Positions 5,370 to 25,917 of a stretch of 29,192 nucleotides of DNA are shown piece by piece. Each line of letters starts with the position of its first letter. Position 1 is the stretch's first letter. A program made the translations under genes and the position numbers. The notes under the pieces were generated by a model. It saw only the letters and a list, made by a program, of their open reading frames with translations, had not been told where the DNA came from and ran no database searches. This DNA comes from a virus, in IMG/VR virus record IMGVR_UViG_3300031800_000010, positions 1-29,192 of that record; one strand, written 5' to 3'.

Positions 5370-6284
5370 TTAAACACGCACTCTACCTTCTTCTACAGCA
5401 CGATCTATCTCGGATTCGAGACGATCATACTCATCCATAGGTAAAGCAGCGATCTCCTCTTGAGTCCATATTTTAGGCTGTCCTAGATTGGTATCTACTG
5501 TTGTAGTCTTCGTAGAAACCATGTCAGCAGCCTTTGAGTTGGAACTCATATTAGACTTCCTTTGAGTCTGTTTGTTCTGTGATCCTGCACCTATTAATCC
5601 CATATCCTGTTTAAATAAATCAATTGCTCGACTTGCTAAACCGACATTATGTGGATTATTATAAACCCATGCTTGAATATCTTCTTGTTGTGATTTTGCC
5701 CAATCGTGAAATTCATCACTATCTCGAATAGCTGCAAAATCAGGATGTTTATTCAACAAATCAGACTCTGCTTCTCTTCTTATGGCTGCTGATTCACGTT
5801 CTTGTAAAACACTCAACTGAGATTGTAACTCTTCAGTCTTGGCTTCACTCTGTAAATGTGAAACAGTTTCAACAACATCGTAAACATCTGGATACCGAGC
5901 TTTAAAATCTTCGAGTTCTTCTAAAGTTTTAGGAGCTTTATACTCAGGTCGTGAAGCAGTTGCTTCATTTATAAGTTCTTGCTCTCTACTTCTAAACTCG
6001 TTTAGCTTAGAATCGTAATGCTTTTTCAAGTCATCGTACCTTTTTTTATAGTTAGGTCTTGTATAAGGTTTTGCTTTCTGTGCTTTTGGTCTTTCTTGTT
6101 GGTCGCTCTCTTCCTCTTCTTGTTGAGCAGGTTGAGGTGCAACAAATAAACTATCAGCAGTTTCAACACCACCTGTAGGCATAACATCATCCGTATGCCA
6201 TGATTTTTTCAAGTTATACGGATTAGGTACTGGTCTATTTTCTTGTGCTTCTTCACTAGAAGCAACATTTTCATTATCAGTCAT
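5370..6284 (-). CDS. Scaffolding protein
   Basis: A 304-residue, highly charged, helix-rich protein immediately upstream of the capsid gene. After a disordered Pro/Gln/Glu-rich N-terminus (to about residue 70) comes a YKKRYDDLKKHYDSKLNEF coiled-coil segment, then further helices with LLNKHPDFAAIRDSDEFHDW and an acidic C-terminus. This layout (Pro-rich tail, coiled coil, position before the coat gene) is typical of scaffolds that template procapsid assembly and then leave. It has no protease motif, so release is probably without self-cleavage. Confidence 0.8.
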   Translation of the reverse strand: MTDNENVASSEEAQENRPVPNPYNLKKSWHTDDVMPTGGVETADSLFVAPQPAQQEEEESDQQERPKAQKAKPYTRPNYKKRYDDLKKHYDSKLNEFRSREQELINEATASRPEYKAPKTLEELEDFKARYPDVYDVVETVSHLQSEAKTEELQSQLSVLQERESAAIRREAESDLLNKHPDFAAIRDSDEFHDWAKSQQEDIQAWVYNNPHNVGLASRAIDLFKQDMGLIGAGSQNKQTQRKSNMSSNSKAADMVSTKTTTVDTNLGQPKIWTQEEIAALPMDEYDRLESEIDRAVEEGRVRV

Positions 6285-11447: not shown

Positions 11448-11700
11448 ATTTATTATCTATAATTTTTTTTAATCCAGCAGGGCTTAGTTTTCTTCCTGTG
11501 TAGTCTTCTAACCAGTAACAACCATCACGCAAAGAAATCTCTTCATTTACAATCATTTCTTCTACGGCTTCGAGAGCCTCAATTTGTTTTTCAACAGGTT
11601 CTAAGTAATGAGAATCTTCTTCAGAAAGTTCATATCCAAAAGGAATAGTAGAACTTGTCCGTTTTCTTAGTAATATTGTTTTTTCTAATAAGCTTTTCAT
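11407..11700 (-). CDS. Small HTH-like protein upstream of terL
   Basis: A 97-residue protein whose core (STIPFGYELSEEDSHYLEPV, then a helical stretch ending SLRDGCYWLEDYTGRKLSPA and GLKKI) resembles the DNA-binding "recombinase" region of large serine recombinases: a PFGY opening, a Glu-rich helix, a sL-x-x-a-x-x-L helix, then an S-x-x-G-L recognition helix. There is no catalytic serine domain, so it cannot recombine DNA alone. Proteins of this kind are often found right before terL in marine phages. A role in DNA recognition for packaging is a reasonable guess. It starts on the ATGA overlap with the SET gene and overlaps terL by 41 bases. Confidence 0.65.
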   Translation of the reverse strand: MKSLLEKTILLRKRTSSTIPFGYELSEEDSHYLEPVEKQIEALEAVEEMIVNEEISLRDGCYWLEDYTGRKLSPAGLKKIIDNKYGTRPERLGFTTV

Positions 11701-12074
11701 ACTCTTTGGAATACATTATATCCAACTATTAATCTTCCATGACATTCACATTTAAACGGAGATACCAGTTCCTCTTCTGTACTTTCGTAGTCAAAAGTAA
11801 TTTCTTCGCCAATCTCAATATTTTTTATTGCTACTAAAAAAGGCGATGTAAAATTCGGAATAATTACCTTCGTGTTAGGATCACAATGATGATTTACGTG
11901 TCCACCCTCATAATGTTCTAGGTGTTTATCTCCTATTTGTATTGAAGTTCTAGTCGGATACGGAAAATAGTTTCCTTCTAGAACTAATACTATGTTTCCA
12001 TTTGTAAAGTTTTCAATAGTAAAAAGACCTTGCATTCCATCTTTTATATTTTTAATTACAATTCTATCGTTCAT
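11697..12074 (-). CDS. SET-domain protein lysine methyltransferase-like
   Basis: A compact 125-residue protein with the hallmarks of a SET domain. An N-terminal GLFTIENFTNG strand-turn is followed by the NHHCDPN motif (residues 61-67; canonical NHxCxPN, part of the SAM pocket). Next comes GEEITFDY (89-96), whose tyrosine is the usual catalytic residue. After it is a post-SET-like Cys pair, CEC (109-111), with HGR. SET enzymes move methyl groups from S-adenosylmethionine to lysine. The lack of a large insert suggests a small, perhaps virion or host-protein-specific enzyme. It sits between an Fe-S carrier gene and the terminase, in the late operon. The target is unknown. Confidence 0.8.
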   Translation of the reverse strand: MNDRIVIKNIKDGMQGLFTIENFTNGNIVLVLEGNYFPYPTRTSIQIGDKHLEHYEGGHVNHHCDPNTKVIIPNFTSPFLVAIKNIEIGEEITFDYESTEEELVSPFKCECHGRLIVGYNVFQRV

Positions 12075-12382: not shown

Positions 12383-12700
12383 TTAAGAAAAGCTACTTCC
12401 ACAGCCACAAGTCGACTTCGTATCAGGATTATTTATTTTAAAAGCTGAACTAAACGCTGATTCTTCAAAATCTATTTCTACGTTTTCTAAATAACCATAG
12501 CTAATAAAGTCTACACATAATCTAACTCCATCGGTTGCTTTAGTAATATGGTCATCCTCTTCAACTTCCTCATCGGATTGAACTCCAAATCTGTATTGAA
12601 ATCCATTACAACCTCCGCCTTCAACAGCTAATCTAACTATTTCCCAAGGTTCTACAAACTCTTTTAGTTTTTGTATCGCTTTATCTGTTAGGGTTATCAT
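12383..12700 (-). CDS. A-type iron-sulfur cluster carrier (IscA/ErpA/HesB-like)
   Basis: At 105 residues, the length of a bacterial A-type carrier. It keeps all three cluster-binding cysteines: C31 in EGGGCNGFQYRF, and C98 and C100 in the C-terminal STCGCGSSFS. The usual segment order (ITLTDKAIQKLKEF helix, GGGCNG turn, GVRLCVDFISYGYL, VEIDFEE) is complete, so it should bind and pass on Fe-S clusters or iron. It starts on an ATGA overlap with the coiled-coil gene. In a late phage operon it may serve phage Fe or Fe-S proteins or be a virion component; both are inferences. Confidence 0.9.
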   Translation of the reverse strand: MITLTDKAIQKLKEFVEPWEIVRLAVEGGGCNGFQYRFGVQSDEEVEEDDHITKATDGVRLCVDFISYGYLENVEIDFEESAFSSAFKINNPDTKSTCGCGSSFS

Positions 12701-13146: not shown

Positions 13147-13230
13147 TTAAAGTAGAGCCATCCACTCTTTAATTACTATTGCTGATAAGAATAATAATAA
13201 TACTATCCATATCGGATTAAACTTCATCAT
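13147..13230 (-). CDS. Tiny single-span membrane peptide (27 aa)
   Basis: The frame starts at 13230 on an exact ATGA overlap with the stop of the oxygenase gene. It reads MMKFNPIWIVLLLFLSAIVI followed by KEWMALL: a single hydrophobic helix with Lys near each end. Overlap coupling and clean hydrophobicity support it despite its length. It stands directly before a lipoprotein gene. A holin-, pinholin- or spanin-like partner role is possible but unproven. Confidence 0.55.
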   Translation of the reverse strand: MMKFNPIWIVLLLFLSAIVIKEWMALL

Positions 13231-13955
13231 TTCTTTTTCTCTTGCTCCCAACAATTTAAATTAGCTGCTACAGTTCGTCTTTCGCCTTCTCCGAAGAACG
13301 GATAGACCATATGTTGCATCCAAGAAGGAAACATCAATTGTCTGCCGACTATAGGTTGCAAAGATATTGATTGTGGCGGTCTTAGTTTTTCGCTATCTGA
13401 TATCTGATTAAGACCATAAGTAAAAGCCAAGAAACCATCACAAGCACCTGAAGAATTGTAAAGAGTATAGTTGTCTGCTTTTCCTTTTCCTATTTCTCCT
13501 AAACTTCCTATTTGTTCAGGTACTTTAGTCCAGCATGTTGTGCTTATTCCCATTAGTGTTTTAGTTCCATGATCGTGTATTGGGTTGTAGTCTCCTTCAA
13601 AGCTATGTACTGACCATAGTTCGTCTATATCTATCGTTCTTCCTTGATGATGAATGCCTGTAATATTACCGAAAGCATTAAGATAAGAAACACCCATGCT
13701 TGTAATGAACTTGTAATAGTCTGCTAATCTTTTATCTTTATGATCCATTAGCAATTGTTCACCTTCATGGATCTGACCAACTAACGTATGCGATAAAGAC
13801 TTTCTATTAGGATCTTCTTTGTATTCATCCAAGTATTCATTCAAATCATTGACTAATTTATCTGGAAGTTGACACTCAAACATTATTGCTGCTGGTAAAG
13901 TATGGATCTGTAGCCCAATATCATTATCATCATTTTCTTTAACTTCCACCTTCAT
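13227..13955 (-). CDS. 2-oxoglutarate/Fe(II)-dependent oxygenase
   Basis: A 242-residue protein that fits the phage/marine 2OG-Fe(II) oxygenase family with a double-stranded beta-helix core (PF13759-like, from memory). It has a first iron-ligand motif NPIHDHG (residues 124-130), the strand block GRQLMFPSWMQHMVYPF with the second His (H215), and ERRTVAANLNCW with an Arg (226/227) placed to hold 2-oxoglutarate. Such enzymes hydroxylate proteins, nucleic acids or small molecules using Fe(II), O2 and 2OG. It overlaps the TerS gene by 17 bases and starts the accessory island. The substrate is unknown. Confidence 0.8.
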   Translation of the reverse strand: MKVEVKENDDNDIGLQIHTLPAAIMFECQLPDKLVNDLNEYLDEYKEDPNRKSLSHTLVGQIHEGEQLLMDHKDKRLADYYKFITSMGVSYLNAFGNITGIHHQGRTIDIDELWSVHSFEGDYNPIHDHGTKTLMGISTTCWTKVPEQIGSLGEIGKGKADNYTLYNSSGACDGFLAFTYGLNQISDSEKLRPPQSISLQPIVGRQLMFPSWMQHMVYPFFGEGERRTVAANLNCWEQEKKK

Positions 13956-14436
13956 TTTCCCATTCAGTTATTGGTTCTAAATCATTTTGTAATAACTCTG
14001 ATGGTGATGATGATGATGATGCTTCATGCTCTATTACTTCTTTTTCAGTATTTTTAGCAGGCAAGATGAATACACCTCCGCCAGCACTATGTGTAATATC
14101 CAGTCTTTCTTTCTTTACAACACCTACTCGATCTAGAATAGCCTGCGCAGCTTGTAGTTTATTGGCTATTTGTGGCATAGGCCTGTTTGTATTCATAATT
14201 TCAACCAATTTAAAGGCCGCTTCAGGAGCGCTATTAGCCAATACATCAGTAGCAAAATCTATTATCTCATTTTTAAGAGCTTTTACTACCTGGTAGTGAC
14301 TACCATTACTGTAACCTGCTAACTCTGCAGCTTGTTTTAAGTCTCCATTGGTTATAAGCAAACAATCCAAGAACTTCTCTTGTTTCTTAGTAAGTTCTTT
14401 ATTTCTTTTTTGAGGTGTTAAATATGTATTTACCAT
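13939..14436 (-). CDS. terS: Terminase small subunit
   Basis: The product has an N-terminal HTH segment (LTKKQEKFLDCLLITNGDLK then QAAELAGYSNGSHYQVVKAL), a central helical oligomerisation part and KLQAAQAILDRVGVVKKERL. This is the layout of phage small terminases that recognise the packaging site and load TerL. A run of five serines near residue 140 comes from a GAT trinucleotide repeat (plus strand near 14000). I start at the second in-frame ATG (14436), because the first (14448) lies inside the -10 box of the promoter and cannot be transcribed from it. The mRNA would then be nearly leaderless. Confidence 0.8.
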   Translation of the reverse strand: MVNTYLTPQKRNKELTKKQEKFLDCLLITNGDLKQAAELAGYSNGSHYQVVKALKNEIIDFATDVLANSAPEAAFKLVEIMNTNRPMPQIANKLQAAQAILDRVGVVKKERLDITHSAGGGVFILPAKNTEKEVIEHEASSSSSPSELLQNDLEPITEWENEGGS

Positions 14437-14446
14437 TATTATATAC

Positions 14447-14475
14447 ATTATAGGACTGGTTTACAACTTTGTCAA
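14447..14475 (-). promoter_or_regulatory. Late (leftward) sigma70 promoter
   Basis: Minus strand: TTGACA at 14475-14470, a 17-base spacer and TATAAT at 14452-14447, a 12/12 consensus match. RNA should start near 14440, only a few bases before the TerS ATG at 14436. It heads the whole leftward virion operon. An A/T tract upstream (T7A7, 14480-14493) may act as an UP element. Confidence 0.8.
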
Positions 14476-14506
14476 GCTATTTTTTTAAAAAAACTACAAA
14501 TAATAC

Positions 14507-14535
14507 TTGACAAAACTCAAATCTGTACCTATACT
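14507..14535 (+). promoter_or_regulatory. Rightward sigma70 promoter
   Basis: TTGACA (14507-14512), a 17-base spacer and TATACT (14530-14535) match 11 of 12 consensus bases. Transcription would begin near 14542 and run through the DnaA-box cluster towards the early genes. The first gene is 660 bases away, so either a long leader or a separate non-coding RNA is made. Its -35 is 31 bases from the -35 of the leftward promoter. Confidence 0.7.
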
Positions 14536-14565
14536 GGAGTAACACCCCCCGCAACCCTAGCTGCA

Positions 14566-14645
14566 AGAAGAAGAAGAAGAAGTAGTAGTAGTAGTAGTGG
14601 TAGCATAGTAGTAATGGTAGCAATAGTAGCAATAGTAGCATAATA
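14566..14645. repeat. Trinucleotide repeat tract (AAG)n, (TAG)n with (CAA)/(CAT) variants
   Basis: A run of AAG units passes into TAG units (exact, then with AAT, CAA and CAT interruptions) for about 80 bases. One register is full of TAG stops, so it is not coding on the plus strand in that frame. Similar GAT repeats occur in terS and CAA repeats in the first early genes, so short tandem repeats cluster around this region. Confidence 0.7.
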
Positions 14646-14696
14646 GTTCTTATTATTAGTTAATTGTTACATTTTACAAATTTTACAAATTTATAT

Positions 14697-14732
14697 AAAA
14701 AGTCACCCACCAACAGAAGGATGCTGGCGGAT
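14697..14732 (-). terminator. Leftward terminator-like hairpin
   Basis: On the minus strand an 11-bp stem (14732-14722 with 14715-14705, including three G-U pairs) with a 6-base loop is followed by GAC and five U (14701-14697). On the plus strand the same three positions are A-C mismatches, so the structure favours leftward RNA. It would insulate the late promoter from leftward transcripts made over the DnaA-box area. A weaker plus-strand function is possible because TTTTT also follows at 14732-14736. Confidence 0.45.
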
Positions 14733-14831
14733 TTTTAGATCTGGTAAACCTTTGAAAATTTGTAAAAATGTACGACCACTAGATATATATACCCCTCCCC
14801 CCCTATGGCTACCTGCCACCCCCCCTTCGAC

Positions 14832-14880
14832 TTATGCACAGGTTTTCCACAGGCAAAAATTTATTCACAGGTTATCCACA
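14832..14880 (+). other. Cluster of four DnaA-box-like 9-mers (candidate oriV)
   Basis: TTATGCACA (14832-14840), TTTTCCACA (14843-14851), TTATTCACA (14861-14869) and TTATCCACA (14872-14880) all face the same way. The last is the perfect E. coli consensus; the first and third fit TTATNCACA. Starts are 11, 18 and 11 bases apart, so pairs are one helical turn apart. Host DnaA could bind cooperatively and open the adjacent AT-rich DNA. Confidence 0.75.
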
Positions 14881-14909
14881 GCTTGCAGCACCCTAGCACA
14901 AGTTACAAC

Positions 14910-14956
14910 AAAAGTCAAATCTATTTTACAAATTTTAAAAAATAAATTTGACTTTT
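14910..14956. repeat. 11-bp perfect inverted repeat in the AT-rich stretch
   Basis: AAAAGTCAAAT (14910-14920) and ATTTGACTTTT (14946-14956) are perfect complements around a 25-base loop that contains a TTTTACAAATTTTAAAA word. A related word recurs at 14971-14988 and two at 14672-14690. It lies 30 bases right of the DnaA-box cluster, where an unwinding element would be expected. Confidence 0.55.
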
Positions 14957-15131
14957 AAAAATTCATCAGATTTTACAAATTTTAAAAATTTTAAAATATT
15001 CCTAGTGAATTTTAAAAACTGGTAAATTGTGAAAATGTAAAATTATATAAATAAGTAGAGCTAAAAAAATTTCACCAATTTATCAATTACAACAATGAGT
15101 TAATTATTTTTTTCAAATTAATTGAGTTTGC

Positions 15132-15172: not shown

Positions 15173-15204
15173 AGTAATAACTTTTTTATGAATAGGTGCA
15201 GTCA

Positions 15205-15390
15205 ATGACAATACAAACAATCACAACAACAACATTAGAAGAGTTAGATAAATTTGGCGAGTCTACAAAAGAAGATACTCAAACACTAGGAGAGTATCTC
15301 CAATTTGTAATTGATAAGTATGAAGGTAAAAAACAATCACAACAATCACAACAACAACAACAACCCAATAATACAACGGAGGATAAGTAA
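15205..15390 (+). CDS. Small early protein with Gln-rich tail (61 aa)
   Basis: Starts at the ATG at 15205, with AGGTG 6 bases upstream (a GTG at 15196 is an alternative). It reads MTIQTITTTTLEELDKFGES and has a helix (LGEYLQFVIDKYEG). It ends in a Gln run encoded by CAA repeats plus PNNTTEDK. It is the first gene of the rightward arm. I do not recognise it. The Gln/Asn tail and the start of the next gene share a near-identical CAA-repeat sequence. Confidence 0.6.
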   Translation: MTIQTITTTTLEELDKFGESTKEDTQTLGEYLQFVIDKYEGKKQSQQSQQQQQPNNTTEDK

Positions 15391-15395
15391 TCATC

Positions 15396-15866
15396 ATGGC
15401 AACAATCAACAACAACACAACACAACAACAACAACCCGATAATTTCAAACATGATACTGGCGGCTTTAGACTTTCAGATTATGAAGCTAACAAGGCCAAA
15501 CAAAGGTTAAGAGATAAAGGCGGTATGCTAAGTCATAAATCATCATTAAAGCATTCAAAAAAGGGTAGACGTATCTGGATAGAAAATCCAAACTTTTTAA
15601 ATGATTCTGGTTTTAGTGTTGGCACTAGATACAACATAGATACTGATGACATTAAATCATATGGTTGTAATACTAAAACAGTATTTATATTAAAACTTGA
15701 TGACAACGGTAAAAGAAAAGTTACTGCAACAATGAGGCGCGGCAAGCCAAGGCCTATTATTGACATTCAAAATACGAAAGTAGGCCTTGTTTTTGATAAC
15801 TCGGTAGAATTCGTCAATGCCAAGTATGTTGGTAACGGTACTATCATCATTAGTGAGGCATCCTAA
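15396..15866 (+). CDS. Early protein of unknown function (156 aa), Gln/Asn-rich N-terminus
   Basis: GGAGG at 15378-15382 lies just before the previous stop. The N-terminus is low complexity (MATINNNTTQQQQPDNF). The body (about residues 20-60) is basic. The C-terminal 90 residues look beta-rich, from FLNDSGFSVGTRYNI to GKPRPIIDIQNTKVGLVF and a final YVGNGTIIISEAS. The aGFs-x-G opening and the closing G-x-I-x-I strand recall small beta-barrel or swapped-hairpin DNA-binding proteins, including SymE-like ones. The resemblance is loose. It is next to the origin-like region, so a replication or regulatory role is worth considering. Confidence 0.6.
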   Translation: MATINNNTTQQQQPDNFKHDTGGFRLSDYEANKAKQRLRDKGGMLSHKSSLKHSKKGRRIWIENPNFLNDSGFSVGTRYNIDTDDIKSYGCNTKTVFILKLDDNGKRKVTATMRRGKPRPIIDIQNTKVGLVFDNSVEFVNAKYVGNGTIIISEAS

Positions 15867-20037: not shown

Positions 20038-20321
20038 AAACAAACATCTCAATCGAAATAGACGATGATCAAAGATTAAACCTTGGACAGAAATATCACA
20101 ACACAACAAAAGCAAAGAAGATGATTTCTAGAAAAGAACTTACCGAAGTTGTAAGATACTTTGTTCTCCAGTTACTAAAGAATCCAACTACCACAAGAAA
20201 AACTATAGATGAGTTTACTTCTACATCGAAAGGAATGAAATTCTTTTTCAACGAGATTCAAGTTAGCGAAGAAACCTACGATGATGGTATCGAACAATGG
20301 CTTGCGGATAAGAAAGAATGA
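20034..20321 (+). CDS. Small protein before the methyltransferase (95 aa)
   Basis: Begins on an ATGA overlap at 20034 (an ATG at 20016 is also in frame): MKTNISIEIDDDQRLNLGQK, then SRKELTEVVRYFVLQLLKNP. The short beta-strand followed by two helices resembles a ribbon-helix-helix arrangement, but I would not insist on it. The gene end overlaps the methyltransferase start. Confidence 0.55.
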   Translation: MKTNISIEIDDDQRLNLGQKYHNTTKAKKMISRKELTEVVRYFVLQLLKNPTTTRKTIDEFTSTSKGMKFFFNEIQVSEETYDDGIEQWLADKKE

Positions 20322-21355
20322 ATGTACTGAGCTTGTTTGACGGTATGAGCTGCGGTCAACAAGCACTAGATCGTTTAGGTGTGAATGTAGACAACTACTT
20401 TGCATCCGAGATAGACAAGTACGCTATAAAGATCACACAAAAGAACTACCCTAACACGATACAGTTAGGTGATGTTTGTGATATAAAAGCAGAAGACTTA
20501 CCAAAAATAGATTTGATATTGGCAGGTTCACCATGTCAAGGATTTAGTTTTGCAAGTCAATCCAAGTTGGCCTTTGACGATCCTAGATCAGCATTGTTTT
20601 TCGAGTTTATTAGGTTGCTAAAAGAGTGCAAGCCTAAATATTTCTTATTGGAAAATGTACGCATGAAAAAGGAATATCTCGATGTGATTACGCAGCAAGT
20701 ATCTGAGTGTTATCCAGAACAAGGTGACATTCCTGGACAAGCTAATTTTTTTGATGCTGCTCGAAGAATTGAACCAATCTTTATTAATAGCGCATTAGTA
20801 AGCGCACAAAACAGACAACGATACTATTGGACTAATATTCCTGGCATCGAACAACCAGAAGATAGAGGCCTGATTCTAAAGGATGTTCTCGAAGATGGTT
20901 TTGATAGCGAAAGAGATAAGAGCTATTGTTTGGATGCTAATTATTACAAAGGAACTAATGTCAGAGGGTACTTCAAAAAGAAAAGAAGACAATTGGTAGT
21001 CAAGGCCATGACCGAAAGAAGAACAGAAGAAGCAAAAAGAATTAGAAAAGAACACATGAAAAAAACTGGAAAGGATTGGTCACCACGTAGAGGTAAAGAA
21101 TTAGTACCTAGAGCAGATAACAAAGCTAACTGTTTGACTACATCAATGACCAAAGAACATATATTAGAGATCATCGAAGATAAAGAACTTTACTGGCGTA
21201 AGCTCACACCTTTAGAATGTGAAAGACTCCAAACAGTAGAGGATAACTTCACCGAGGGAGTATCAAACACACAACGATATAAGATGTTAGGAAATGGATG
21301 GACAATTGAAGTTATTTGTCACATACTGAATATCCTGGCCAAAGATAACAAATAG
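20318..21355 (+). CDS. Orphan C5-cytosine DNA methyltransferase
   Basis: 345 residues with all key motifs. Motif I is VLSLFDGMSCGQQALDRLG (SAM binding) and motif IV is GSPCQGFSFASQ with catalytic C73. Motif VI is LLENV (E112) and motif VIII is ALVSAQNRQRYYWTNI. A basic target-recognition stretch (about 210-270) precedes motif X, YKMLGNGWTIEVICHIL. The LFFEFIRLLKECKPKYFLLE and RYYWTNIPG segments resemble the branch of phage and Dnmt3-like enzymes rather than Dcm/HhaI. No restriction nuclease gene is adjacent, so it probably protects phage DNA from host enzymes or marks it. The target sequence cannot be told from here. Confidence 0.92.
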   Translation: MNVLSLFDGMSCGQQALDRLGVNVDNYFASEIDKYAIKITQKNYPNTIQLGDVCDIKAEDLPKIDLILAGSPCQGFSFASQSKLAFDDPRSALFFEFIRLLKECKPKYFLLENVRMKKEYLDVITQQVSECYPEQGDIPGQANFFDAARRIEPIFINSALVSAQNRQRYYWTNIPGIEQPEDRGLILKDVLEDGFDSERDKSYCLDANYYKGTNVRGYFKKKRRQLVVKAMTERRTEEAKRIRKEHMKKTGKDWSPRRGKELVPRADNKANCLTTSMTKEHILEIIEDKELYWRKLTPLECERLQTVEDNFTEGVSNTQRYKMLGNGWTIEVICHILNILAKDNK

Positions 21356-22286: not shown

Positions 22287-22463
22287 TCACACCTTGATTT
22301 CTGACTCATCAAGTTTTAAAGCTATAAATAACAAGCAACCGTAATATTCTTTTGCGTTCTTGTTATGCCTTTGCTTGATGAAGTCTACAGGTAAGAAGTA
22401 CCTATGGTTAGGGTGGTTAAGGTAAACTTCGGTTGGATGTGGTAGGTTAAGAGTTTTTAACAT
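22287..22463 (-). CDS. Possible minus-strand small gene (58 aa) in the gap before primase-helicase
   Basis: A protein-like frame on the opposite strand reads MLKTLNLPHPTEVYLNHPNH then RYFLPVDFIKQRHNKNAKEY and ends LKLDESEIKV. It exactly fills the only sizeable gap in this part of the rightward operon. There is no Shine-Dalgarno sequence, so the case rests on composition. If real it is the only leftward gene in the replication arm. Alternatively the region is a leader with GG-runs on the plus strand (22398-22449). Confidence 0.35.
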   Translation of the reverse strand: MLKTLNLPHPTEVYLNHPNHRYFLPVDFIKQRHNKNAKEYYGCLLFIALKLDESEIKV

Positions 22464-22480
22464 TGGGGAGAGCAAACACA

Positions 22481-24196
22481 ATGAAAGAAAAAAAAGAAAA
22501 TGGTTTTGTGCAAACACATTTGGAATGTCCTTCATGTGGACATAAAAAATGTTATGCAATAAACGCAGACGGTTCAGGATATTGTTTCAGTTGTGGTTTC
22601 CGCAAGAAACATGAAAAGGGAATTGTCTATGACCTTGAGAAAGAAATAATTGACCTTGAGAAAGAAATAATTCATCTTGCTGCAAATCCTGGCCAACAAC
22701 CAATGAGCAACAATGATATTGTATCAACCTATTCAGCACTAACCGACAGAAAAATATCTGAGAAAACTGCTCGTAAGTACGGAGTGAAAGTTATTCAGTC
22801 TGGAAACGGAGCAGTTTCTAAACATTTATATCCTTACTACGATGATAACGGTGAAAGAGTTTCTACAAAAACAAGGCACGTTAGCACCAAGAAATTTTCT
22901 TGGGAAGGAACACAAAGAGACATAGGTTTGTTTGGTGAACAGTTATTCAAAAAAAGTAAATATTTAACTATCACCGAGGGTGAATGTGATGCGATGGCTG
23001 CTTACGAATTAATGGGAAGTAAGTGGTCTGCGGTTTCTATAAGGCATGGTGCAGGTAATGCAGAACAAGACATTAAGAATAGCCTTGAATTTGTAGAAGG
23101 GTTTGATAATGTAATAATTTGTTTTGACAATGACAAACAAGGAAAGCAAGCATCAAAGAAAGTAGCTAGGTTACTAAGACCAGGAAAAGCAAAAATAATG
23201 CGGCTTCCTGATGGGTTTAACGATCCAAACGATATGCTTAAAGCAAATGCACACAAGAAATTTTTGGATTGTTTTTGGGCAGCAAAGATTTATACTCCAA
23301 CTGGAGTCCTGAATATTTCTGAGAAACGAGAGCAGTTTCACAACAGGGAAAAGAGAGATACTGTTCCTTTTCCTTGGGAGGGCTTGAACAAGAAGCTATA
23401 TGGATTACAACAAGGAAGTTTACTAACTTTTACAGGTGGCACAGGTTTAGGTAAGTCTAGCGTTACTCGTGAGTTAGAGCATTGGCTTATTACAACAACC
23501 AAAGACAACGTAGGTGTTATATCTTTAGAAGAGGATTGGAGAAGAACAGTAGATGGAATTTTATCTATTGAAGCTAATGCAAGGTTGTATATAGATCAAG
23601 TAAGAGACGGATATTCCAAAGAAGAAATAAATAGTTTTTTTGATGTGCTGACCGATGAAGATGGTGAAAATAAATTATGGATTCATGCACATTTCGGAAC
23701 AAGTGACATAGAAGAAATATTTTCTAAGCTTAGATTTATGATTATAGGATGTAATTGCAAATGGATTATCATAGATCACTTACATATGTTGGTTAGCTCA
23801 GTAACAGAAGGCGATGAACGTAGAGCTATTGATGCGATCATGACCAGACTAAGAAGTATTGTCGAAGAAACTGGAGTAGGGATTATTTTAGTATCTCATC
23901 TAAGAAGAGTTATGGGTAATAAAGGACACGAAGACGGCATTCAAGTTAATCTGAGCCATTTAAGAGGCAGTCAAGGCATAGCACAATTAAGTGATTGTGT
24001 CATTGCTTTAGAAAGAAACCAACAATCAGATGATCCAGAAGAATCTAATACTACAGTATTAAGAGTTTTGAAATCCAGATACACAGGTGACGTAGGATAT
24101 GCAACCAGCTTATTCTATGATAAGCATACTGGCCGCTTGTCTGAGCTGGAATTAGATTCTTTTGCAAAAGAAACGGAACAACCAGTATGGACTTAA
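22481..24196 (+). CDS. Primase-helicase (T7 gp4-like)
   Basis: 571 residues from the ATG at 22481, which has GGGGAG at 22465-22470. It has an N-terminal zinc-binding domain with C16, C19, C35 and C38 (CPSCG...CFSCG). The TOPRIM primase core carries ITEGECDA (E167) and FDNDKQG (D216, D218). The RecA-like helicase domain has Walker A GGTGLGKS (319-326), Walker B WIIIDHLHML, and LRGSQGIAQLSDCVIALERN near the C-terminus as in T7 gp4. It would unwind the fork and lay RNA primers for the neighbouring polymerase. The linker after the zinc domain holds a perfect 21-base tandem duplication (22631-22672; DLEKEII twice). Confidence 0.95.
   Translation: MKEKKENGFVQTHLECPSCGHKKCYAINADGSGYCFSCGFRKKHEKGIVYDLEKEIIDLEKEIIHLAANPGQQPMSNNDIVSTYSALTDRKISEKTARKYGVKVIQSGNGAVSKHLYPYYDDNGERVSTKTRHVSTKKFSWEGTQRDIGLFGEQLFKKSKYLTITEGECDAMAAYELMGSKWSAVSIRHGAGNAEQDIKNSLEFVEGFDNVIICFDNDKQGKQASKKVARLLRPGKAKIMRLPDGFNDPNDMLKANAHKKFLDCFWAAKIYTPTGVLNISEKREQFHNREKRDTVPFPWEGLNKKLYGLQQGSLLTFTGGTGLGKSSVTRELEHWLITTTKDNVGVISLEEDWRRTVDGILSIEANARLYIDQVRDGYSKEEINSFFDVLTDEDGENKLWIHAHFGTSDIEEIFSKLRFMIIGCNCKWIIIDHLHMLVSSVTEGDERRAIDAIMTRLRSIVEETGVGIILVSHLRRVMGNKGHEDGIQVNLSHLRGSQGIAQLSDCVIALERNQQSDDPEESNTTVLRVLKSRYTGDVGYATSLFYDKHTGRLSELELDSFAKETEQPVWT
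22631..22672 (+). repeat. Perfect 21-bp tandem duplication inside primase-helicase
   Basis: Two identical 21-base units (22631-22651 and 22652-22672), each encoding DLEKEII. The frame is kept and the helical linker between the zinc-binding domain and the primase core grows by two turns. Identity at every base suggests a recent event. Confidence 0.85.
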
Positions 24197-25917
24197 TATT
24201 TGACATAGAAACTGACGATCTTAAAGCAACAAAGATTTGGTGCATTGTGGCTCAAGATTCTGACTCTGGCAAGATTTATATGTTTGCTCCTCACCAGTTG
24301 GAGTCAGGTCTTGAGTTACTTCAAAAAGCAGACAGATTAATAGGACACAACATAATAGGGTTTGATATTCCTGTTATCAAAAAATTGCATGGTGTGGATC
24401 TGTCTGATAAAGAACTTGTAGATACACTTGTTATGTCAAGGTTGTTTAATCCAGTTCGTGAGGGTGGACACAGTTTAGAAATGTGGGGTTATCGTTTGAA
24501 ATATCCTAAGAAAAATTTTGATGATTACAAAAATTATTCAAGTGAAATGTTGGATTACTGTAGAAGGGATGTCCAGTTAAATGCTTTGGTGTTACGAAAA
24601 TTAACAAAAGAAGGAAGTGGTTTCTCTAAAGAAAGTGTAGAACTTGAACAAGAGGTGTCAAAAATATTAAAAGAACAAGAAGAGAATGGTTTCTTATTTA
24701 ATGAACGAGAAGCTGAGATATTGTTAGCAGAATTAAGAGAAAAAATGCAAGCAACTGAAGAAGAAGTTCACAAAGTTTTTAAACCTAGATGGGTAGATGA
24801 TAAGGAAGTAAGACCTTATATAAAGAAAGACGGCACTCTCTCTAAGAGAGGAATGACAGACGAAGAATATAAAAAAGTATTTGCACATCAAATTTATGTA
24901 CCTTTTATGAGAAGAAAACTTCAAGAATTTAATCTTGGTTCTCGTAAACAAATAGGTGAATATCTTAAAACTTTTGGTTGGAAGCCTAAGAAGTTTACTC
25001 CTACAGGACAACCAAGAGTAGACGAAAAGATTTTAAGCAGAATAAAGAACATACCAGAAGCACAACTAATCGCTGAGTATTTACTGCTTCAAAAAAGAAT
25101 AGCACACATAGCTTCCTGGACAGAAGCTGTAGAAGATGATGGTCGAGTGCATGGTTTTGTTATACCTAACGGTACGATTACAGGTCGTATGGCACATAGA
25201 GCGCCTAACATGGCACAAGTTCCATCAGTTAAGAGTCCTTATGGTGTGGAATGTAGATCCTGTTGGATCGTACCAAAGGGATATAAATTAATAGGTATTG
25301 ATGCGAGTAGCCTTGAATTAAGAATACTTGCTCACTACATGAAAGACGAGGAATTTACAAATGAGATCATTAACGGAGACATACACACCTATAATCAAAA
25401 AATTGCAGGACTTCAATCAAGAGATCAGGCGAAGACATTCATATATGCACTCATCTACGGAGCAGCTAATAAAAGACTCGGAGAAGTGGTTGGTGGAAGC
25501 GAAAGTGACGGTAAGAGAATTAGAAAACATTTCTTTGCTAATCAGCCTGCACTTAAAAGACTTCGAGATAATGTTACAAAAGCAGCAACGAGAAGTTACA
25601 TCAAAGGACTTGACGGAAGACGTATTTTTATAAGGCACATCCATGCTTCTTTGAATAGCCTACTTCAAGGTGGTGGTGCTATTGTTATGAAGAAAGCATT
25701 AGTTATACTAAATGATAAAGCTAACAAAAGAAACTTAGATTTTAAATTTGTTGCAAATATACACGATGAATGGCAAGTAGAAGTACATGAGGCTCATGCT
25801 GAATACTTTGGTAAGCTAGGTATAGAAGCAATTAAAGAAGCAGGTGAATATTACAACCTTCGGTGTCCTTTAGATGCTGAATACAAAATAGGAGATAATT
25901 GGAATGAAACACATTAA
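24187..25917 (+). CDS. DNA polymerase, family A, with 3'-5' exonuclease
   Basis: 576 residues, T7 gp5-like but shorter. The proofreading domain has FDIET (D6, E8), HNIIGFD (D60) and YCRRD (D128). The polymerase domain has motif A GIDASSLELR (D372), motif B RDQAKTFIYALIYG (K416, Y420) and motif C IHDEW (H526-D527-E528). The residue matching E. coli Pol I F762 (T7 Y526) is tyrosine, a state that studies of viral PolA link with virulent life style. The start overlaps the primase-helicase stop by 10 bases. No separate thioredoxin-binding loop can be made out. Confidence 0.95.
   Translation: MDLIFDIETDDLKATKIWCIVAQDSDSGKIYMFAPHQLESGLELLQKADRLIGHNIIGFDIPVIKKLHGVDLSDKELVDTLVMSRLFNPVREGGHSLEMWGYRLKYPKKNFDDYKNYSSEMLDYCRRDVQLNALVLRKLTKEGSGFSKESVELEQEVSKILKEQEENGFLFNEREAEILLAELREKMQATEEEVHKVFKPRWVDDKEVRPYIKKDGTLSKRGMTDEEYKKVFAHQIYVPFMRRKLQEFNLGSRKQIGEYLKTFGWKPKKFTPTGQPRVDEKILSRIKNIPEAQLIAEYLLLQKRIAHIASWTEAVEDDGRVHGFVIPNGTITGRMAHRAPNMAQVPSVKSPYGVECRSCWIVPKGYKLIGIDASSLELRILAHYMKDEEFTNEIINGDIHTYNQKIAGLQSRDQAKTFIYALIYGAANKRLGEVVGGSESDGKRIRKHFFANQPALKRLRDNVTKAATRSYIKGLDGRRIFIRHIHASLNSLLQGGGAIVMKKALVILNDKANKRNLDFKFVANIHDEWQVEVHEAHAEYFGKLGIEAIKEAGEYYNLRCPLDAEYKIGDNWNETH

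Follow-up and report, generated by a model that had tools for sequence, protein, structure and literature searches.

A tandem DnaA-box array between the genome arms of an HMO-2011-like phage, possibly part of a host-assisted replication origin

We were curious why a phage that seems to carry its own replication machinery should hold, between its two genome arms, a tight row of 9-mers resembling boxes for the bacterial initiator DnaA. In the textbook view, T7-type replication does without the initiator of the host. The locus lies in a 29,192-base stretch of a virus record (IMGVR_UViG_3300031800_000010), which we analyzed as a whole and refer to as the window. The original prediction offered two uses for the cluster, DnaA-dependent initiation or titration of host DnaA.

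The window is an incomplete genome. Its leftward left arm opens with the terminase small subunit gene (terS; 13939–14448, minus strand; weak Terminase_2 match) and includes a 2OG-Fe(II) oxygenase (13227–13955), an IscA-like Fe-S protein (12383–12700), a SET-domain protein (11697–12074), TerL, portal, and capsid. The rightward right arm begins with small early ORFs, among them a short 64-aa ORF (15196–15390) upstream of an uncharacterized one (15396–15866, plus strand). These are followed by a C5 DNA methyltransferase (20318–21355), an SSB-like protein, a T7 gp4-like primase-helicase (22463–24196, plus strand; phrog_239, 3.7e-176), a PolA-type phage DNA polymerase (24187–25917, plus strand; phrog_17, 7.6e-153), an endonuclease I-like protein, and the start of a ribonucleotide reductase. 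The nearest isolates are the Pelagibacter phages HTVC103P, HTVC104P, and HTVC115P (TerL 65%, polymerase 52%), and the wider group is that of Puniceispirillum phage HMO-2011 (PMC9038755). This is a marine, HMO-2011/HTVC103P-like phage with a predicted T7-type primase-helicase and PolA. No RNA polymerase was found among the ORFs scanned in this incomplete genome and no Rep-type initiator among the window proteins scanned, and there was no Bac_DnaA_C match, and hence no sign of a phage-encoded DnaA, in 16 related phage records. As a pointer to the host, the IscA gene gave distant matches only (38%–42%).

The four boxes are all on the plus strand, at 14832–14840 (TTATGCACA), 14843–14851 (TTTTCCACA), 14861–14869 (TTATTCACA), and 14872–14880 (TTATCCACA), spanning 49 bp in total. 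Their starts are 11, 18, and 11 bases apart, confirming the original description of four same-facing near-consensus 9-mers, one of them perfect. Box 4 is the perfect R1-type box, and boxes 1 and 3 also match the consensus; three of the four match TTATNCACA exactly, and TTTTCCACA is exact only under TTWTNCACA, the E. coli DnaA-box consensus used in PMC12371093. The clustering is beyond chance. Counting both strands, the window has four TTWTNCACA sites, all within the cluster, and 300 dinucleotide shuffles gave a mean of 4.9 single sites per window and a maximum of two same-strand sites within 60 bp; with one mismatch allowed, 0/300 shuffles reached four sites. That the rest of the window has no boxes is not a significant finding on its own: a reversed control motif had no sites either. 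Box avoidance outside the cluster was for that reason dropped as an argument against titration.

The boxes sit in the non-coding gap between a pair of back-to-back promoters and the early genes, and the AT-rich repeats and the position between divergent arms noted originally were both borne out. Read from left to right, the gap contains divergent promoters and a C-rich block, after which come the boxes, 29 bases of spacer, and a palindromic AT-rich element. The promoters (14447–14535), one per arm, are near-consensus sigma70-type elements: TTGACA-17-TATAAT toward terS (14447–14475, minus strand; 12/12) and TTGACA-17-TATACT toward the early arm (14507–14535, plus strand; 11/12), with similar promoters in relatives, including HTVC103P. 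A transcript from the rightward promoter would cross the boxes unless terminated, and a candidate terminator hairpin lies at 14705–14732. The predicted early leader also contains an AAG/TAG trinucleotide repeat (14565–14650) that none of the examined relatives has; we rejected its TAG-TAG repeat (14580–14650) as a DnaA-trio, given its wrong polarity with respect to the boxes, its distance (∼180 bp), and that absence. The C-rich block ATATATACCCCTCCCCCCCTATGGCTACCTGCC (14785–14828), with related sequence just before the boxes in relatives, is a candidate cos/pac, terminus, or recombination site. The same block (TATATACCCC..CCCCCCTATGGCTACCTGCC) appears G-rich, as if flipped, in the related contigs L088 and L091.

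On the 3′ side of box 4, the spacer (14881–14909) leads into a near-perfect AT-rich palindrome (14910–14956) with 23-nt arms and a 1-nt loop (20/23 paired, hairpin z = −3.75). It is the best palindrome in the window, with 20 paired arm positions against 17 for the runner-up. It overlaps a candidate DNA unwinding element (DUE; 14917–15016), which ranks second in instability among the 100-bp segments of the 29 kb. The window has five copies of a 12-mer, TTTTACAAATTT, every one within 14672–14982 (region-shuffle mean 0.0065 copies): two overlapping plus-strand copies (14672–14692, starts 14672 and 14681), an inverted copy (14756–14767, minus strand), one within the palindrome and DUE (14924–14935, plus strand), and one beyond the palindrome (14971–14982, plus strand). 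The copies flank the boxes at irregular spacing (9, 75, 168, and 47). An Rfam search returned no match.

We tentatively favor the reading that these boxes form the initiator-binding portion of an origin of phage replication served by host DnaA, a reading to which we give somewhat less than an even chance. In E. coli, DnaA opens the oriC DUE next to box R1, on the 3′ side of the boxes (PMC8235120), and it is there, beyond box 4, that the window has its palindrome and unstable DNA; the role of the spacer is suggested by the oriC order of box, spacer, and DUE described in the same paper. Host DnaA would bind the four same-facing boxes (14832–14880) and extend from them in the 3′ direction. Next to the bound DnaA, the repeats and the AT-rich palindrome (14910–15016) would melt, perhaps aided by supercoiling that the neighboring divergent promoters generate, and the phage primase-helicase, SSB, and PolA would load on the opened strands and take over. 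We infer DnaA binding, melting, helicase loading, and origin use from the anatomy of the site. Of the two uses originally proposed, initiation fits that anatomy (boxes, spacer, and unstable palindrome) together with the lack of a detected phage DnaA; titration is weaker. Some observations count against an origin. A phased DnaA-trio run (5′-CTA type, box strand) is absent 3′ of box 4, where the longest run is two trios, 40 nt downstream. Cumulative GC skew, originally expected to switch at the cluster if this is the origin, has its minimum nearby, at 15450 (AT skew minimum, 14486), but the genes change direction there too, which deprives the skew of independent value as evidence of an origin. 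We rejected it as proof on account of this confounding; in the relatives L117 and L147, the minimum tracks the gene-direction switch and not the boxes, which also speaks against an origin at the boxes.

Conservation of the boxes in related contigs proved partial. In L084 and L085 (TerL 86%), the pair TTATACACA-11-TTATCCACA directly follows the C-rich block, in the same place and orientation as in the window, with a further TTATCCACA ∼100 bp beyond the pair, and L037 has one box in the junction region. Several relatives have the promoters as well, along with a related C-rich block. No boxes were found at the junction in L088, L090, L091, L162, or HTVC103P, all of which cover it, and the TerL identity of the first three is similar to that of box-bearing relatives; this argues against the origin reading. 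In other places, L117 has a cluster of five boxes and L147 has another, both ∼2 kb from terS in the direction of the early genes, with an AT-rich run directly after the boxes in L147; the cluster of L154 lies just upstream of terS. Relative to the arms, all three run on the opposite strand from the window array. A TerL tree requires box presence to have changed at least about four times, a count that is approximate, as loci not reaching the junction were scored as lacking boxes. The array has apparently been gained or lost repeatedly, and because five relatives have no boxes at the junction, it seems not to be essential for this phage type.

Outside this group, viral contigs yielded at least 120 stretches with tandem boxes in exact 11-base phasing, and a full scan of viral contigs with a reversed-pattern control found 26. 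Among tandem-box clusters in non-coding gaps with known flanks, 30/75 lay in divergent gaps, compared with ∼20% of non-coding bases and 4/21 control-pattern clusters. The 11/18/11 layout (offsets 0/11/29/40) also occurs in viral contigs L194, L196, L246, and L271; we rejected it as a specific conserved layout, since offsets of 12 and 22–23 were equally common or commoner. L194 (2363–2430) and L196 (3720–3788) are related marine contigs with arrays at offsets 0/11/29/40/48/59. In L217 (10194–10273), a marine podophage contig, six tandem boxes lie between its terminase genes and its early genes, which run rightward. Among 50,697 phage records, 381 had a match to a tandem-box query. The exact four-box layout had no match in GTDB genome contigs, and mimicry of a host oriC was rejected, as the layout was in none of the bacterial genomes searched.

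Several T7-like phages carry comparable arrays at genome ends. DnaA boxes are therefore no surprise in a phage with a T7-like replisome, and the original prediction needed correcting on this point. These phages, from several genera, have four to six TTATCCACA boxes that nearly all share one strand, and the rest of their genomes has few boxes or none. Shigella phage A7 has four boxes per 177-bp terminal repeat and none elsewhere (8/8); the repeat was proven in PMC8427288, which does not mention DnaA. In the Escherichia phages P483 and nasanit, 5/5 boxes are in the early non-coding region or genome end; in Enterobacter phiEap-1 and Klebsiella Kp7, 10/12 and 10/14 boxes are at genome ends (five near each end in both phages); in Klebsiella FBKp16, 6/10 boxes form an array in the early non-coding region; and in Vibrio BD1, 5/6 form one in the early non-coding region or end. 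The array loci are MK685668 (1–177 and 39882–40058), KT321314 (ends), ON148527 (ends), KP090453 (37256–37358), PV245933 (4085–4187), and MW394389 (4093–4252). All these arrays read opposite to early transcription, except for one of the five end boxes of BD1. T7 itself has one TTWTNCACA in its genome and no cluster. The T5-like Salmonella phage Stitch has three boxes in a divergent non-coding gap of its terminal repeat (L325 3004–3073, corresponding to Stitch 5745–5814), and N4-like Pseudomonas phages have one or two near a genome end. A review by Davison of T5 pre-early functions reportedly mentions DnaA boxes in the T5 repeat. In the open-access literature, we found no paper linking DnaA boxes with Autographiviridae and one linking them with direct terminal repeats, an Ori-Finder prediction.

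Similar arrays, comparably placed, thus occur in unrelated phages. Like the T7-like end arrays (four to six boxes, of which nearly all share one strand), the window array is non-coding and lies where terminase and early genes meet, in a phage that has a replisome of its own. By position, it is equivalent to a T7-like terminal-repeat array. Those arrays differ in running nearly all opposite to the early genes, in lying inside the terminal repeat in the case of A7, and in belonging to phages that encode their own RNA polymerase, whereas none was found in the window. The T7 primary origin consists of the phi1.1A/B promoters and AT-rich DNA, and T7 uses its own RNA polymerase. The window resembles it in having a promoter followed by AT-rich DNA and a T7-type helicase and polymerase, and differs from it in its box cluster and in the polymerase, as above. 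With bacterial oriC (E. coli R1-DUE; B. subtilis boxes 6/7, GC spacer, and DnaA-trio), the window shares same-facing TTWTNCACA boxes, a spacer, and unstable AT-rich DNA on the 3′ side; it differs from oriC in lacking a trio run, in a four-box spacing unseen in the bacterial genomes searched, and in belonging to a phage that brings its own replisome and in which no dnaA was found. Iteron-plasmid origins (RK2, P1, F, and pSC101; PMC4980987) likewise combine boxes for host DnaA with neighboring AT-rich repeats in a replicon other than the host's, but the window has irregularly spaced 12-mers and no Rep-type initiator among its scanned proteins. In Pseudomonas phage PseuGes_254 (PMC11512268), an AT-rich region with DnaA boxes was proposed as the origin; that phage is unrelated, and the proposal is an Ori-Finder prediction without a comparative test.

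The main rival to the origin reading, which we consider unlikely, is a junction or terminal complex. Array-bound DnaA would mark or block the joint between the terminase end and the early genes (a concatemer joint or genome end), and such a complex would pause forks or RNA polymerase, or aid end formation and packaging, without opening an origin. It is made more likely by the position of the A7 arrays inside terminal repeats, a location awkward for a bidirectional origin. It also gains from the placement of the arrays of A7, phiEap-1, Kp7, P483, nasanit, FBKp16, and BD1 at the terminase/early junction or genome end, from the Stitch cluster in the divergent gap of a T5-like terminal repeat, and from the C-rich block, related in relatives, directly before the boxes. 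It leaves the adjacent DUE-like palindrome unexplained, however, the window boxes are oriented opposite to the T7-like arrays, and the contig runs through the junction, with no sign of a physical genome end there. Titration, in which the array is a decoy that absorbs host DnaA as phage copies build up and so halts host initiation, seems to us rather improbable. In E. coli, chromosomal boxes do titrate DnaA (PMC12371093), the dose is doubled by copies in the terminal repeats of some T7-like phages, and a non-coding site with patchy gain and loss fits a dispensable host-control trait. What weakens it is the small number of boxes: each genome has four, and extrapolation from the shuffles predicts ∼200–220 chance sites in a host of even 1.3 Mb; moreover, a sink needs neither phasing nor a neighboring DUE, and dispersed boxes would serve.

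Transcriptional control and iterons for a phage-encoded initiator are less likely. DnaA bound ∼300 bp downstream from the rightward promoter could act as a roadblock or regulator of the early operon, and DnaA is described as a known transcription factor (PMC8203912); similar divergent promoters occur in relatives, and the boxes lie inside the predicted leader. Relatives nevertheless keep the promoters without the boxes, and the candidate terminator hairpin already lies upstream, so we give this role a low probability. The boxes might instead merely resemble DnaA boxes and bind an initiator of the phage itself, for which the uncharacterized early ORF just downstream and the private 12-mer repeats could be cited. 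We regard this as very improbable: the four copies match the consensus at conserved positions and vary at N (or W), as expected for DnaA but not for iterons, which would be identical, and the same 9-mer is common to unrelated phages. Several close relatives do without boxes, as a chance or relic cluster would allow, yet no shuffle reproduces the cluster and L084 and L085 have boxes in the same place, which leaves chance or a non-functional relic with hardly any probability.

Beyond the host-assisted origin that we favor here, it is possible, if rather doubtful, that phages with full replisomes (T7-, N4-, T5-, and HMO-2011-like) have repeatedly gained a DnaA-recruiting array at the terminase/early junction or in terminal repeats, reflecting a general and overlooked use or disabling of the host initiator at the genome joint. 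Should these arrays be functional, phages equipped with a T7-like replisome, among them abundant marine relatives of SAR11 phages, would depend on or attack host DnaA, and this would explain how replication starts in such a phage with no detected RNA polymerase. The role of a DnaA array in a terminal repeat also becomes testable in laboratory phages. Finally, we noted a repeated TTTGTCAAG motif in the junctions of L091 (4523–4627, no box) and L037 (2134–2197, one box), possibly a different iteron.
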